DNA of 64,000 nt, taken from the NCBI RefSeq assembly GCF_014137995.1, contig NZ_JACGWV010000002.1, positions 1,240,001-1,304,000 of the forward strand, written 5' to 3'. The notes beneath the pieces are model-generated. The model was given only the letters and a program-made list of their open reading frames with translations, was not told the DNA's origin and made no database searches. Below, piece by piece: positions 15,498 through 19,546 of the stretch. The translations under genes and the position numbers were made by a program. Source of the stretch: Promicromonospora sukumoe. Its GTDB lineage: Bacteria > Actinomycetota > Actinomycetes > Actinomycetales > Cellulomonadaceae. Positions within the stretch are counted from its first letter, which is position 1; each line of letters begins with the position of its first letter.

Positions 15498-15941
15498 TCA
15501 GTCGTCGTCGCCGTCGTCGTCCTTGTCGTCCGGGGTGTTGTCGTTCGGGGTGTCGTCCGCCGCGGAGTCGTAGTTGGCGTCGTCGGGCGAGTCGGCCGAC
15601 TGGGCCGAGCCCGGGGTGTCGACCGCCGACTCGTTCGGCGAGTCCGCCGACTCCGGCGAGGGGTCGTAGTTCGCGTCGCCCGGCGAGTCGGCCGACTGCG
15701 CGGAGCCCGGGGTGTCGACCGCCGACTCGTTCGGCGAGTCCGCCGACTCCGGGGAGTCGTCGGTGGCCGCGGCGGTCTTCTCGCCGTCCGTCCCGGTGCC
15801 GCCGGAGAGCGCGACGGCGGCGGACGACTCGGTCCGCGGGGCGGGGTCGTTGAGCGCGGCGGCGGTGCTCGCACCGGCGATGCCGATGATCGCGGCCGTC
15901 CCGACGATGGCCCAGCGCTTCTTCATGGTCGAGGGGTTCAT
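15498..15941 (-). CDS. Small acidic exported protein with tandem 32-residue repeats
   Basis: Unrecognised protein of 147 aa. Residues 1-29 form a signal peptide or membrane anchor (KKRW then a hydrophobic segment ending ASTAAA). The rest is disordered, Asp/Ser/Pro-rich, with no Cys. Residues 63-94 and 95-125 are near-identical units (SPESADSPNESAVDTPGSAQ then SADSP and DANYD), and the tail is poly-Asp (DDKDDDGDDD). It is probably extracellular or wall-associated and could bind cations such as Ca2+ or Mg2+; that is inference. It lies 121 nt downstream of the response-regulator gene with its own upstream 11-bp direct repeats, so it is a probable direct target of that regulator. Start ATG 15941 or 15926 (MKKRW). 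Confidence 0.75.
   Translation of the reverse strand: MNPSTMKKRWAIVGTAAIIGIAGASTAAALNDPAPRTESSAAVALSGGTGTDGEKTAAATDDSPESADSPNESAVDTPGSAQSADSPGDANYDPSPESADSPNESAVDTPGSAQSADSPDDANYDSAADDTPNDNTPDDKDDDGDDD
15568..15759. repeat. Two tandem 96-bp repeats inside the acidic exported protein gene
   Basis: Copies at 15568-15663 and 15664-15759 differ at only a few positions, nearly all synonymous or conservative. They encode the two 32-residue units, consistent with a recent in-frame duplication. Confidence 0.9.
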
Positions 15942-16006
15942 GCGAGTGACCTCCCGGGTCTCCCGGCACCCCGGTCGGGTGCCTGCTGGGTATGAGTCTG
16001 CTGCGC

Positions 16007-16039
16007 CACGATGAGGCGACGAGGAGACGGCGATGAGAC
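16007..16039 (-). promoter_or_regulatory. Three contiguous 11-bp direct repeats, probable OmpR/PhoB-type operator
   Basis: Read on the minus strand the block is GTCTCATCGCC, GTCTCCTCGTC, GCCTCATCGTG without gaps. An 11-bp period is the hallmark of sites for winged-helix OmpR/PhoB regulators, and it lies 66 nt upstream of the acidic exported protein gene and just downstream of the response-regulator gene. An overlapping palindrome ATGAGA-CGGC-TCTCAT is at 16033-16048. Confidence 0.7.
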
Positions 16040-16062
16040 GGCTCTCATGTTGCGCACGCGCC

Positions 16063-16728
16063 TCATCCCCGGAACCGGTAGCCCGCGCCGCGCACGGTCT
16101 CGATGCTGTCGGCGCCGAGCTTCTTGCGCAGGTAGCGCACGTAGACGTCCACCACGTTCGAGCCGGGGTCGAAGTCGTACCCCCACACGCGCGACAGGAG
16201 CTGCTCCCGGGACATGACCTGCCCCGGGTGCTGGAGGAACACCTCCGCGAGCGCGAACTCCCGCGCGGACAGCTCCACCTCGCGGCCCCCCGCGGTCGCG
16301 GTGCGGGTGCGCAGGTCCAGCCCGACGCCGCCGTGCTCCAGCCGGTCCGACGGCGCGGCCTCCCCCGTCGCGCGGCGCAGCCGCAGCTTGATCCGCGCGA
16401 GCAGCTCGTCGAACCCGAAAGGCTTGGACATGTAGTCGTCCGCGCCGCCCTCCAGGCCGGCCACGCGGTCCGAGAGGGAGTCGCGCGCGGTGAGGATCAC
16501 GACGGGCAGCGTGGAGCCGACGTCGCGCAGCCGCTGGAGCACCGTGAACCCGTCCAGGACGGGCAGGCCGATGTCCAGCACCATCAGGTCGTAGCCGCCC
16601 GACATGGCGTGGCCGAGGGCCGCCGCGCCGTCGGACACGACGGTGGGCTGGAAGCCGTGCGCCTTGAGGCCCTTGCGGACGAACTGCGCGATGCGCTCCT
16701 CGTCCTCCGCGATCAGGATCTGGTTCAC
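16063..16728 (-). CDS. OmpR-family response regulator
   Basis: DNA-binding response regulator, 221 aa from GTG at 16728, which overlaps the histidine kinase stop (GTGA). The receiver domain has the acidic pocket EDEE at 8-11, phospho-acceptor Asp52 (VLDIGLPVLDG), Thr in ILTARD and Lys in YMSKPFG. The C-terminal winged helix (about residues 130-221) has VELSAREFALAEVFLQHPG and VDVYVRYLRKKLG. The best candidate operator is the 11-bp direct repeat block just beyond its 3' end. Confidence 0.96.
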   Translation of the reverse strand: MNQILIAEDEERIAQFVRKGLKAHGFQPTVVSDGAAALGHAMSGGYDLMVLDIGLPVLDGFTVLQRLRDVGSTLPVVILTARDSLSDRVAGLEGGADDYMSKPFGFDELLARIKLRLRRATGEAAPSDRLEHGGVGLDLRTRTATAGGREVELSAREFALAEVFLQHPGQVMSREQLLSRVWGYDFDPGSNVVDVYVRYLRKKLGADSIETVRGAGYRFRG

Positions 16729-18236
16729 GCCGCCTCCTCCGCCGCGGTCGTCGCGCCCCGGGTGTCGGCGGGGCCTCCGTGCTGTCCGGCGGAGCCGGCG
16801 CCTCCGGCCGAGCCGCCGCCGACGGGCCACGTCATCACGAAGCGCGCCCCGCCGCCGTCGGACCGCTCGACCACGACGTCGCCGCCGTGGCCCTGCGCGA
16901 TGGCGCGGACGATCGCGAGGCCCAGGCCGGAGCCGGGCACGCCGCCCGTCGTGCTGCCCCGGGCGAACCGGTCGAAGATGCGGTCCGCCTCCTCGGGCGG
17001 CACGCCCGGCCCGGTGTCCCGCACCCAGAGGCGGACCGTGCGGCCCGACGGGCCGTCGAACACCTGCGTGCCGATGCCCACCTGGTCGTCGGCGCCGGTG
17101 AACTTCACGGCGTTGTCCGCGAGCTGGAGCACCGCCTGGGTGAGCCGGTGCGCGTCGGCGGCCACCTCGACGTCGGCCCGCGCGTCCACCACCCAGCGGC
17201 GCGCGCCCAGCGCCCCCGCCTTGTCGTGCACGTCGTCCGTGAACCGGCCGAGGTCCACCGGGGCGAGGGTCACGAAGTCGGACCGCTCCGCCTTGGCGAG
17301 CAGCACGAGCTCCTCCACGATCTGCCCCATCCGGGAGGTCTCGTCCAGCAGCAGGTCCCGGGTCTCCCGGACGTCCGCCGGGTCGTCCGGGTCGAGCACC
17401 TCCAGGTGGCCGCGCAGCACCGTCAGGGGCGTGCGCAGCTCGTGCCCGGCGTCGTCCAGGAACCGGCGCTGCGTCTCGATGGCCGTGGACAGCCGGTCGA
17501 GCATGGTGTTGAAGGCGCCGGCGAGCTCGCCGAGGTCGTCGTCGGTCGCGACAGGCACCCGCTGGGACAGGTCGGTCTCGGTGACGCGCGTCGCGGTGGC
17601 GCTGAGCTGGCGGAGCGGGCGCAGCAGGCGGCTCACCACGAGCCAGGCGAAGAACCCGAGCAGCACCAGGGCCACGCAGCAGACGATCGCGTACGTGCGC
17701 ATGACGTCGTACTCGGCCGCGAGCGACTGGTCCAGCGCGGACGCCATGACGTACGCGCCCACCTCCTGCCGGTCCGGCACGGTCACCGGCACGACGACGA
17801 ACCACACCCGGCCGATCTCGGTCTCGATCTCGCGCTGGACGGTCGTGTCGGACTGCGGCGTCAGGCCGGCGACGACCTCCTGGACCACCGGGTCGTCCGC
17901 GATCACCCGGCTCAGCGCGGGCGGGTTGGACTGCTGGTGCACGCCGTCCAGGTAGCTCACGAACATCTCGTTGGTGCCCGGGACGTTGCGCTCCATGGCG
18001 ACGCTCATGAGCCGCCCGGCGCCGTGGAAGTCCTCGCCGGTCTCCGGGTCCACACCGTCGATCGCGAGCCGCTGCAGCTCGCCCATCTCCTGGTCGAAGT
18101 CCTCGGAGATGTCGTCCATGATCTGCTGGGACTGGATGGCGTGCGTCAGCAGGCCCGCCCCGAGCAGCCCGATGGCGGTCACCGCCACGACGACGGTCAC
18201 GACCTTGGCCCGGACCGAGGGCCGACGCAGGCTCAA
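16725..18236 (-). CDS. Sensor histidine kinase of the OmpR-type system
   Basis: Membrane sensor kinase, 503 aa from TTG at 18236, which overlaps the preceding gene's stop as TTGA. Two membrane segments (about residues 10-30 and 165-187) bracket an extracytoplasmic domain of about 135 residues, acidic near the first segment (DDISEDFDQEMGE). HAMP follows at about 188-240, then the H-box DDAGHELRTPLTVLRGHLEVL and the ATPase motifs DNAVKF, DTGPGVPPEE and GSGLGLAIV. The acidic sensor region would suit cation or cationic peptide sensing, as in PhoQ, but this is inference. Confidence 0.94.
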   Translation of the reverse strand: MSLRRPSVRAKVVTVVVAVTAIGLLGAGLLTHAIQSQQIMDDISEDFDQEMGELQRLAIDGVDPETGEDFHGAGRLMSVAMERNVPGTNEMFVSYLDGVHQQSNPPALSRVIADDPVVQEVVAGLTPQSDTTVQREIETEIGRVWFVVVPVTVPDRQEVGAYVMASALDQSLAAEYDVMRTYAIVCCVALVLLGFFAWLVVSRLLRPLRQLSATATRVTETDLSQRVPVATDDDLGELAGAFNTMLDRLSTAIETQRRFLDDAGHELRTPLTVLRGHLEVLDPDDPADVRETRDLLLDETSRMGQIVEELVLLAKAERSDFVTLAPVDLGRFTDDVHDKAGALGARRWVVDARADVEVAADAHRLTQAVLQLADNAVKFTGADDQVGIGTQVFDGPSGRTVRLWVRDTGPGVPPEEADRIFDRFARGSTTGGVPGSGLGLAIVRAIAQGHGGDVVVERSDGGGARFVMTWPVGGGSAGGAGSAGQHGGPADTRGATTAAEEAA

Positions 18237-19486
18237 CGGGCGCCCGCGCCGGCGGTCGCGAGGCGCGACCCGTCGAGCCAGGCCGCCACGACGTCGAGGC
18301 GGCGCGACGTCGCCGCCTGCCAGTTGCGCTCCTGGACCCGGTGCGGGCCCGTGGCCAGGGAGAGCAGCACGCCCGCGACCCGGGCCGCGAGGTCGCGCGG
18401 GTCGACGCCGCGGCCGCCGGGCTCGGTCACGAACCCGGTCGCGTAGTCCGCCGCGAGCCGGCGCATCCGGTTCGCGCGGGCCACGTGCCCGGCGTCGGAC
18501 CCGCCCACGAGGGACAGCACGTCCAGGTGCGCGACCAGGCACGCGAGGTCGTCGGCGCGGTGCCCCGGCCCCGCGGAGTCCACGTCGAGCAGACCGGTGA
18601 CCCGCCCGTCGGTGAGCATGATCTGGGCCTCGTACAGGTCGCCGTGCGTCGGGTCGGTCCCGGTGCCGCGCTCCGCGAGCCGCGCGGCGACGGCCGCGGC
18701 CAGGTCGTCCGCCCGGGCGGCCTCCGCGGGCAGCGCCGCCCCGATCACGCCCGCGTAGTGCTGCGCCGACTCGCTCCAGGCCGGGCGGCGCGGCAGGTCG
18801 CGCACCTCGGCGGGCAGCCGGTCGAGCAGGTCCAGGATCTCGGGCGGGGACGGGATGCGGGCCCCGTCGCGGACGGCGGTCCGCATCTCGGTGCCGTGCA
18901 GCGGCGACAGGACCAGCAGGCCGTCGTCGGACCAGCCGAGGGGGCGCGGCACGGGCAGCCCGGCCCGGGACAGCAGCGCGTGCCGCTGGTGCAGGTCCGC
19001 GACCTTGCGCGGGCGCAGCACCTTGAGGAACACCCGGGCCGACGCCGCCGTCGCCTCCAGCACCGCACGCCGCGTGGGCCGGTAGGCGCGGACCTTCAGC
19101 TCGGGGTGCGCACGCTCGCGCGGGCCGACGCCGAGCCCCGCCAGCAGCTCCTCGACCGCGGCGGGGTCGAAGGCGCGCGGCAGGGCGGGCAGCGCCGGGT
19201 CGCCGGGGAAGCGCCACACGGCGACCGTGGCGTCGCCGTCGGACAGCGTGACCACGCCGGGCTTGCGGCCGTCGCGCGCCCGGCCGACGCTCGCGCCGAG
19301 CGTCTCGGAGCGTTCGACGCCGTTCCACCGCACCGTCGCGCGGTAGGACACCGTGGTCGTCGAGCCCGGCCGGTGGTCCACCTGGCGCACCCGCCAGTCG
19401 ACGAGCTCACCACCCGCCGTCGCCACGGCGGCGTCGAGGAGCCCCGCGGCGGACTCGCCGGTCAGCAGATCGAGGTGGGTGTTCAC
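18233..19486 (-). CDS. Aminoglycoside phosphotransferase-fold (APH) kinase
   Basis: Protein of 417 aa from GTG at 19486, GAGGAT 6 nt upstream (probably leaderless). The kinase core has ARVFLKVLRP (nucleotide-binding Lys), the Brenner-like loop DPTHGDLYEAQIML (Asp in HGD) and the metal-binding segment LLDVDSAGPGHRADDLA. Members phosphorylate small molecules such as choline, maltose or antibiotics; the substrate here is not evident. The N-terminal 130 residues precede the fold and look like the region seen in maltokinase-like proteins. It is the first gene of a three-gene unit with the histidine kinase and response regulator (TTGA and GTGA overlaps), an unusual linkage. Confidence 0.88.
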   Translation of the reverse strand: MNTHLDLLTGESAAGLLDAAVATAGGELVDWRVRQVDHRPGSTTTVSYRATVRWNGVERSETLGASVGRARDGRKPGVVTLSDGDATVAVWRFPGDPALPALPRAFDPAAVEELLAGLGVGPRERAHPELKVRAYRPTRRAVLEATAASARVFLKVLRPRKVADLHQRHALLSRAGLPVPRPLGWSDDGLLVLSPLHGTEMRTAVRDGARIPSPPEILDLLDRLPAEVRDLPRRPAWSESAQHYAGVIGAALPAEAARADDLAAAVAARLAERGTGTDPTHGDLYEAQIMLTDGRVTGLLDVDSAGPGHRADDLACLVAHLDVLSLVGGSDAGHVARANRMRRLAADYATGFVTEPGGRGVDPRDLAARVAGVLLSLATGPHRVQERNWQAATSRRLDVVAAWLDGSRLATAGAGAR

Positions 19487-19546
19487 CGTGCCATCCTCGC
19501 AGCCGGGCGGGGCAGAAGCGCCCCGATCCGGATGAGAATCCTCTAA

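Follow-up and report, generated by a model that had tools for sequence, protein, structure and literature searches.

Gene content and proteins of the locus

The window analysed here is a stretch of 64,000 nucleotides from Promicromonospora sukumoe (contig NZ_JACGWV010000002.1, positions 1,240,001 to 1,304,000 of the forward strand), which carries four minus-strand genes for an APH-fold kinase (APH), a sensor kinase (HK), a response regulator (RR) and a secreted protein (SP). Computation showed that the four genes and a DNA element with promoter geometry are conserved together, and we conclude that they form a real, ancient and uncharacterised regulatory unit. Its features, in window positions, are the following.

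18233..19486, minus strand: APH-fold kinase (APH), 417 amino acids, GTG start, PF01636 match
16725..18236, minus strand: sensor histidine kinase (HK), 503 amino acids, TTG start, with HAMP, HisKA and HATPase_c
16063..16728, minus strand: OmpR/PhoB-type response regulator (RR), 221 amino acids, GTG start, with Response_reg and Trans_reg_C
15498..15941, minus strand: Asp/Ser/Pro/Ala-rich protein (SP), predicted to be exported and disordered, 147 amino acids, ATG start
16009..16047, minus strand: predicted SP operator, TGAGAGCCGTCTCATC and further CTC repeats, holding most of the repeats at 16007-16039
15995..16000, minus strand: predicted SP -10 element, CAGACT (nAnnnT), a constant distance away from the operator
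19531..19546, minus strand: partial operator upstream of APH-HK-RR, TTAGAGGATTCTCATC, aligned in 13 loci
19493..19498, minus strand: predicted -10 element of the APH-HK-RR operon, GAGGAT, placed by spacing, near the GTG start

The HK start overlaps the APH stop as TTGA, the RR start overlaps the HK stop as GTGA, and a gap of 121 bases separates RR from SP. These gene calls, domains and overlaps had been given in an earlier sequence-only reading of the window and were borne out by the coordinates and Pfam matches; re-reading of the SP sequence likewise recovered the two 32-residue repeats and the poly-Asp tail described there.

APH matched PF01636 with 44.9 bits (gathering cut-off 23.2, E 1.5e-11), and its AF2 model had a pLDDT of 88.5. 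Among 51 aligned sequences, K155, H281-G282-D283, Q288, D301 and D303 were each kept in 93% or more, and in a set of 19 they were invariant. A search of the PDB with the single APH sequence gave no match, and weak APH(3') matches were obtained with the APH profile. In the structure model, HK carries a predicted extracellular Cache-type sensor domain, for which the nearest solved folds include WalK, TlpB, CusS and PhoQ; this domain can be aligned across families. RR scored above cut-off for both PF00072 and PF00486. Assignment of RR to the CopR/SilR/CztR subfamily (TIGR01387) was rejected at 206.5 bits against a curated cut-off of 279.2, as was that of HK to the CopS sensors (TIGR01386; 177.3 against 292.55 bits), and the MtrA, CseB and PhoB equivalogs were rejected with scores of 174.2, 188.5 and 185.5 against cut-offs of 300, 350 and 296.2, respectively.

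SP starts with the positively charged MKKRW and a hydrophobic stretch up to ASTAAA, contains the two repeats, which are identical at 30 of 32 residues and include SPESADSPNES, and ends in the tail DDKDDDGDDD. When the first 30 residues are taken as the signal segment, an estimate made by eye and not by a predictor, 117 residues are left, with 26 D, 18 S, 13 P and a net charge of -29; cysteine is absent. We read SP as an exported and intrinsically disordered protein. It had no Pfam match at E 1 and no NCBIfam match at E 0.01, and among 102 proteins related to SP only one (P0016) had a precomputed Pfam domain.

The promoter element

The sequence-only reading had noticed three gapless 11-bp repeats upstream of SP, and these were confirmed: positions 16007-16039 consist, on the minus strand, of the abutting 11-mers GTCTCATCGCC, GTCTCCTCGTC and GCCTCATCGTG, with 25 of 33 pairwise matches. 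Ten of the 63,968 33-base segments of the window reached 25 matches, seven of them at the array itself (starts 16005-16011) and the other three at starts 15439, 61171 and 61172, while 20 Markov shuffles of the window contained a mean of 0.5 segments at this score. Taken alone, the repeats are moderately rare within the window; they are significant because they are conserved, as was found when the proposed search of related genomes was made, in 13 of 13 same-genus genomes and in other genera.

Beyond what had been described, a TGAGAG half (from 16047) lies upstream of the repeats; the -10 at 15995-16000 and the partial site before APH (19531-19546) are likewise additions to that reading. Alignment of the gap between RR and SP in the 13 same-genus genomes gave ATGAGAGnCGTCTCATC-n4-TCTCCTC-n4-CCTCATC together with a conserved AGACT. 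The promoter element consists of TGAGAGnnCTCTCAT, then CTC repeats, then nAnnnT at fixed spacing.

We built a 31-position matrix from 15 Promicromonospora and Myceligenerans sites and applied it, at a cut-off of 10 bits, to 704 kb of sequence in 57 loci from other genera. This held-out scan gave 62 operator matches in 36 of the loci, where Markov shuffles led us to expect 2.2. The matches were placed at SP (26), APH (15) and HK (5), and 16 could not be assigned to any gene that the script had called; reading of the loci accounted for at least eight of the latter, which belonged to SP genes missed by the filter or the distance limit (L110, L128, L137, L146 and L049) and to poly-Asp genes (L131, L133 and L137). 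In the columns outside the matrix, the 62 sites showed TGAGA at -7 to -3 in 96-98%, as well as A41 in 96% and T45 in 95%, which is the nAnnnT -10 at its fixed spacing.

A PhoB-type activator site substitutes for the -35 element of a promoter. The geometry of our element is that of such a site in place of the -35. The known PHO box consists of 11-bp direct repeats with seven conserved and four less conserved positions, as described in PMC4415409. When the window was scanned for sigma-70 promoters, none was detected at SP. The unit resembles the PhoB/OmpR systems in the domain pair of the regulator, in the 11-bp direct repeats and in their place close upstream of the -10, and differs from the PHO box in the heptamer (TCTCATC / TCTCCTC), in the added inverted TGAGAG half and in the target genes.

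The DNA-reading helix of RR was VDVYVRYLR in 49 of 56 listed relatives, one further relative being cut short. The six relatives with a different helix (L052, L113, L115, L123, L147 and L148) had no operator match of 10 bits or more. Judged from sequence, the 11-bp repeats are very probably the operator of RR; this part of the sequence-only reading holds, while its restriction of the site to three 11-mers does not, the site being a palindrome plus repeats.

Upstream of the APH-HK-RR operon, the partial site was aligned in the window and 12 Promicromonospora and Myceligenerans loci, and reads TCTCAT in 11 of the 13 and TCTAAT in L103 and L106. In these 13 loci the predicted -10 of this operon is also conserved, apart from minor substitutions. 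In other families the operator before APH is full.

Linkage of the four genes and the proposed unit

SP was present directly after RR in all 13 Promicromonospora genomes searched. When about 85,000 species were searched for the motif SPESADSP[NAD], 96 stretches were returned, from which 24 loci were confirmed as relatives (Promicromonospora 10, Myceligenerans 2, Isoptericola 4, Blastococcus 3, Acidimicrobiia 2, Prauserella 2 and a Pseudonocardiales metagenome-assembled genome 1). An APH homologue of 40-95% identity adjoined SP in all 24, HK was found in 21 and RR in 20, the loci lacking RR being L114 (at a contig end), L116, L120 and L121. Other attempts to find SP contributed less. A profile search of 296 class genomes found only two, since it scored few candidates in each genome for this low-complexity query, and the remaining genomes were not counted as lacking SP. 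A DNA pattern degenerate for SPESADSP matched 56 of 396 phylum genomes and was too permissive to be used. One SP match (L015, in G053) was dropped as an unrelated membrane protein.

The association was also recovered from the other genes. An APH search of the 296 class genomes gave 28 matches in 27 genomes, of which 19 (the window counted) had HK and RR within about 5 kb; one of these 19 (L143) carries another exported protein at the place of SP. Five more matches lay on contigs that end there, with SP visible in four. RR matches were found in 121 of 200 family genomes, and among 20 RR loci examined, mostly high-scoring ones from outside Promicromonospora and Myceligenerans, 15 had an APH homologue in the examined stretch, which in one of them (L053) was only partly matched, at a contig edge. 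As a control, all 150 PF01636 rows of six genomes, which include gene fragments and other kinases, were compared with 192 of 200 PF00486 rows, many weak ones being long frames that encode no regulator. For the APH of the unit, a PF00486 gene was located no more than 5 kb away in 6 of 6 cases, and for other PF01636 rows in 3 of 144, a comparison that gauges how unusual the linkage is and not how frequent the unit is, because the genomes were chosen as carriers. On the counts from SP loci, APH loci and this control, chance co-location was rejected, in agreement with the non-random four-gene association that the sequence-only reading had put forward.

The gene order varies between groups. It is APH-HK-RR-SP in Promicromonospora and Myceligenerans and SP (one or two copies)-APH-HK-RR in Isoptericola; HK-RR faces convergent SP and APH in family f38 and in further genera of the family to which the window belongs, APH-SP faces away from HK-RR in Acidimicrobiia, and APH-SP faces RR-HK in Blastococcus. 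That the genes have stayed linked despite such repeated reordering speaks for a common function. The distance matrices of 38 loci were correlated, as co-inheritance predicts (APH-RR 0.85, APH-HK 0.94 and RR-HK 0.93).

Altogether, these results point to one autoregulated envelope two-component unit that makes an exported disordered protein and a dedicated APH-fold kinase, and we consider this reading probable. Several observations weigh against it. Of the 57 held-out loci, 21, both Acidimicrobiia included, had no site that reached 10 bits, and the APH promoter of the window has the palindromic half only, with its -10 1 bp further off. HK and RR were absent from the examined stretch in 3 of the 24 SP loci (L116, L120 and L121) and beside 4 of the 28 APH orthologues (L122, L140, L141 and L142), where SP was not found either, by the composition filter or by reading; all of these loci but L120 also lacked a 10-bit operator match. 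In the linkage control, the genomes were picked from known carriers and 8 of the 200 PF00486 rows stood outside (7 in G341 and 1 in G000, the window's genome), and the correlation of distance matrices is equally expected from plain vertical descent.

In the proposed mechanism, HK would relay an envelope or extracellular signal, received through its Cache-type domain, to RR. We infer that phosphorylated RR binds the element (TGAGAGnnCTCTCAT and CTC repeats every 11 bp), whose last CTC repeat lies about 9 bp upstream of the weak nAnnnT -10, and that it activates SP in the manner of PhoB rather than repressing it. RR would also activate its own APH-HK-RR operon through the partial site. SP would be exported, and APH would be its dedicated partner, the most economical role being the modification of SP or of something delivered with SP.

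Two-component systems that have a defined operator and control an exported protein are of a known kind. Literature searches found no description of such a system whose fixed partners are a kinase of the APH fold and an exported, disordered protein rich in Ser, as the sequence-only reading had also supposed; PMC12419801 proved unrelated to the unit and was set aside. The analysis unites scattered annotations ('hypothetical', 'phosphotransferase', 'sensor kinase') in a single testable unit, whose predicted regulon can be read from one DNA element, and the unit spans Acidimicrobiia (genes only) to Promicromonospora. Whichever reading holds, the promoter element offers a ready reporter for finding the signal.

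Possible kinase substrates, the secreted protein and a predicted wider regulon

The substrate of APH admits more than one reading. APH might phosphorylate a small molecule (a sugar, an amino alcohol or an antibiotic), with SP as a separate output of an envelope or antibiotic stress regulon that has two unrelated effectors; we regard this as a serious possibility of somewhat less than even chance. APH shares its fold and the positions of its catalytic motifs with aminoglycoside and macrolide phosphotransferases and with 5-methylthioribose kinase, but its identity to them is 10-21% over the aligned parts, and it falls below the curated cut-offs of the resistance models. An identity as a resistance enzyme was rejected, the APH(3') model scoring 23 bits against a cut-off of 205, which also speaks against this reading. 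Moreover, APH adjoins SP in every one of the 24 SP loci, even in Prauserella, where the 20-kb locus has no HK or RR, and this pairing is what one would expect of a kinase that belongs with SP. The small-molecule kinase of the sequence-only reading is one candidate and not the sole one.

A kinase tied to SP could be a dedicated protein kinase that phosphorylates SP serines in the cytoplasm before export, a tentative idea that we hold to be rather unlikely. An acidic residue stands within the next three positions for 13 of the 18 serines of mature SP, which is weak evidence because SP is so acidic overall. The finding of a Ser-rich SP in every family is partly built into our composition filter, which demands 12% Ser. 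If the idea is true, a two-component system controls the making of a surface protein that is secreted, carries several phosphates and resembles casein, and we know of no bacterium with such an arrangement. Action of APH on SP would give bacteria a new route to modified surface proteins, one that comes with its own two-component switch.

APH-fold kinases usually have an Asn after HGD, and APH has Gln in its place. This is one of the differences from the LanK enzymes (CaoK and LxmK), which likewise have the APH fold and a partner polypeptide that is gene-encoded and contains Ser (PMC9486802). Among the structural matches of APH, LxmK was comparable in fold and TvaE of the thioviridamide pathway was also present, but the matches barely cover the N-terminal region of about 95 residues. 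That SP is a modified-peptide precursor in the style of class V lanthipeptides or thioamitides, with APH as its LanK-type kinase, appears very improbable: the window's genome has no match to the partner lyase of the HopA1 type (PF17914), one of seven genomes searched (G390) has it, at C1:345 kb against C1:685-690 kb for the unit, and SP lacks Cys and has a signal-like segment in place of a leader peptide.

SP might instead be an accessory sensor: once exported, it would bind to the sensor domain of HK and thereby influence signalling in return, in the way of HbpS with SenS-SenR and CpxP with CpxA. It would be an exported protein made under the control of the neighbouring two-component system, and precedents for accessory proteins are described in PMC4991794 and PMC4160245; like SP, HbpS of Streptomyces is a secreted protein that belongs with a two-component system (PMC4991794). 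However, HbpS is an octameric iron/haem protein according to PMC3754957, whereas SP is of low complexity and without a Pfam family, and the unit includes an APH-fold kinase. The length and repeat content of SP also differ strongly between families while the HK sensor stays alignable, and several genomes have two SP copies. We consider a sensory role of SP unlikely.

The element also marks other genes. In the window's genome, the first operator pattern had three matches against 0 in the control, with a perfect match at the SP operator. One match (1 mismatch) lies 54 bp before a gene for a 250-amino-acid membrane protein with a DDxxxLHE motif (C3:211044-211793; L154 and L156); of the 13 same-genus genomes, nine yielded this gene, with the element upstream in all nine. 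In Prauserella, a 245-amino-acid membrane protein is encoded directly after APH-SP in the locus without HK and RR (L116:10395-11132), and the two proteins have a common DDxxxLHER stretch of weak similarity (E 0.006 and 0.074 in reciprocal two-sequence comparison). A weaker operator-like site with 3 mismatches (C3:556858-556894; L155) stands before a gene with a weak DUF1611 match, which is followed by a gene with a weak match to an ABC-transporter membrane region.

Across ten genomes (about 53 Mb), a 19-base form of the element had 29 matches and the reversed control 0. Of these, 22 lay upstream of SP (12), a poly-Asp exported protein (6) or APH (4); the others preceded a membrane protein, an exported low-complexity protein and a small basic protein (one each), a GT2-like glycosyltransferase (2) and a GH127-like hydrolase (2), labels that come from sequence only.

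Poly-Asp exported proteins with the operator immediately upstream occur in L125 (3007-3387), L127, L128, L131, L133, L137, L117 and L180. In all of these but L180, that is six f38 loci and one Blastococcus locus, the protein has 96-164 residues with a poly-Asp tail and its gene is followed by HK. The acidic tail of the window's SP thus has a counterpart in a separate protein. These proteins, the net charge and poly-Asp tail of SP, and the modelled sensor fold near WalK, CusS and PhoQ are consistent with the sequence-only proposal that the system senses cations or wall stress and that SP binds ions outside the cell. However, SP is Ser/Pro/Ala-rich and barely acidic in f38 and several other genera of the window's family, so that acidity is not a conserved property of SP, and the heavy-metal models stayed below cut-off. 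Cation sensing and ion binding, which were based on the acidity of SP, were not supported, and we judge the proposal improbable.

Some sites stand further from the unit. The operator lies upstream of the GT2-like glycosyltransferase in L193 and L194 (G351 and G277), and several hundred bp upstream of the Tat-type exported GH127-like protein in L183 and L176 (G277 and G390). In L196 (G351 C1:5806000-5825900) there is a scattered second set, in which SP-like and poly-Asp genes have their own operators and the regulator is 58% identical; no match to the window's APH was found there, although the start of a PF01636 row lies some 5 kb away from this second regulator. In Isoptericola (L185, G146 C1:3499949), a perfect 19-base match precedes a gene for a very small, extremely Arg-rich protein that adjoins an ABC-transporter-like gene.

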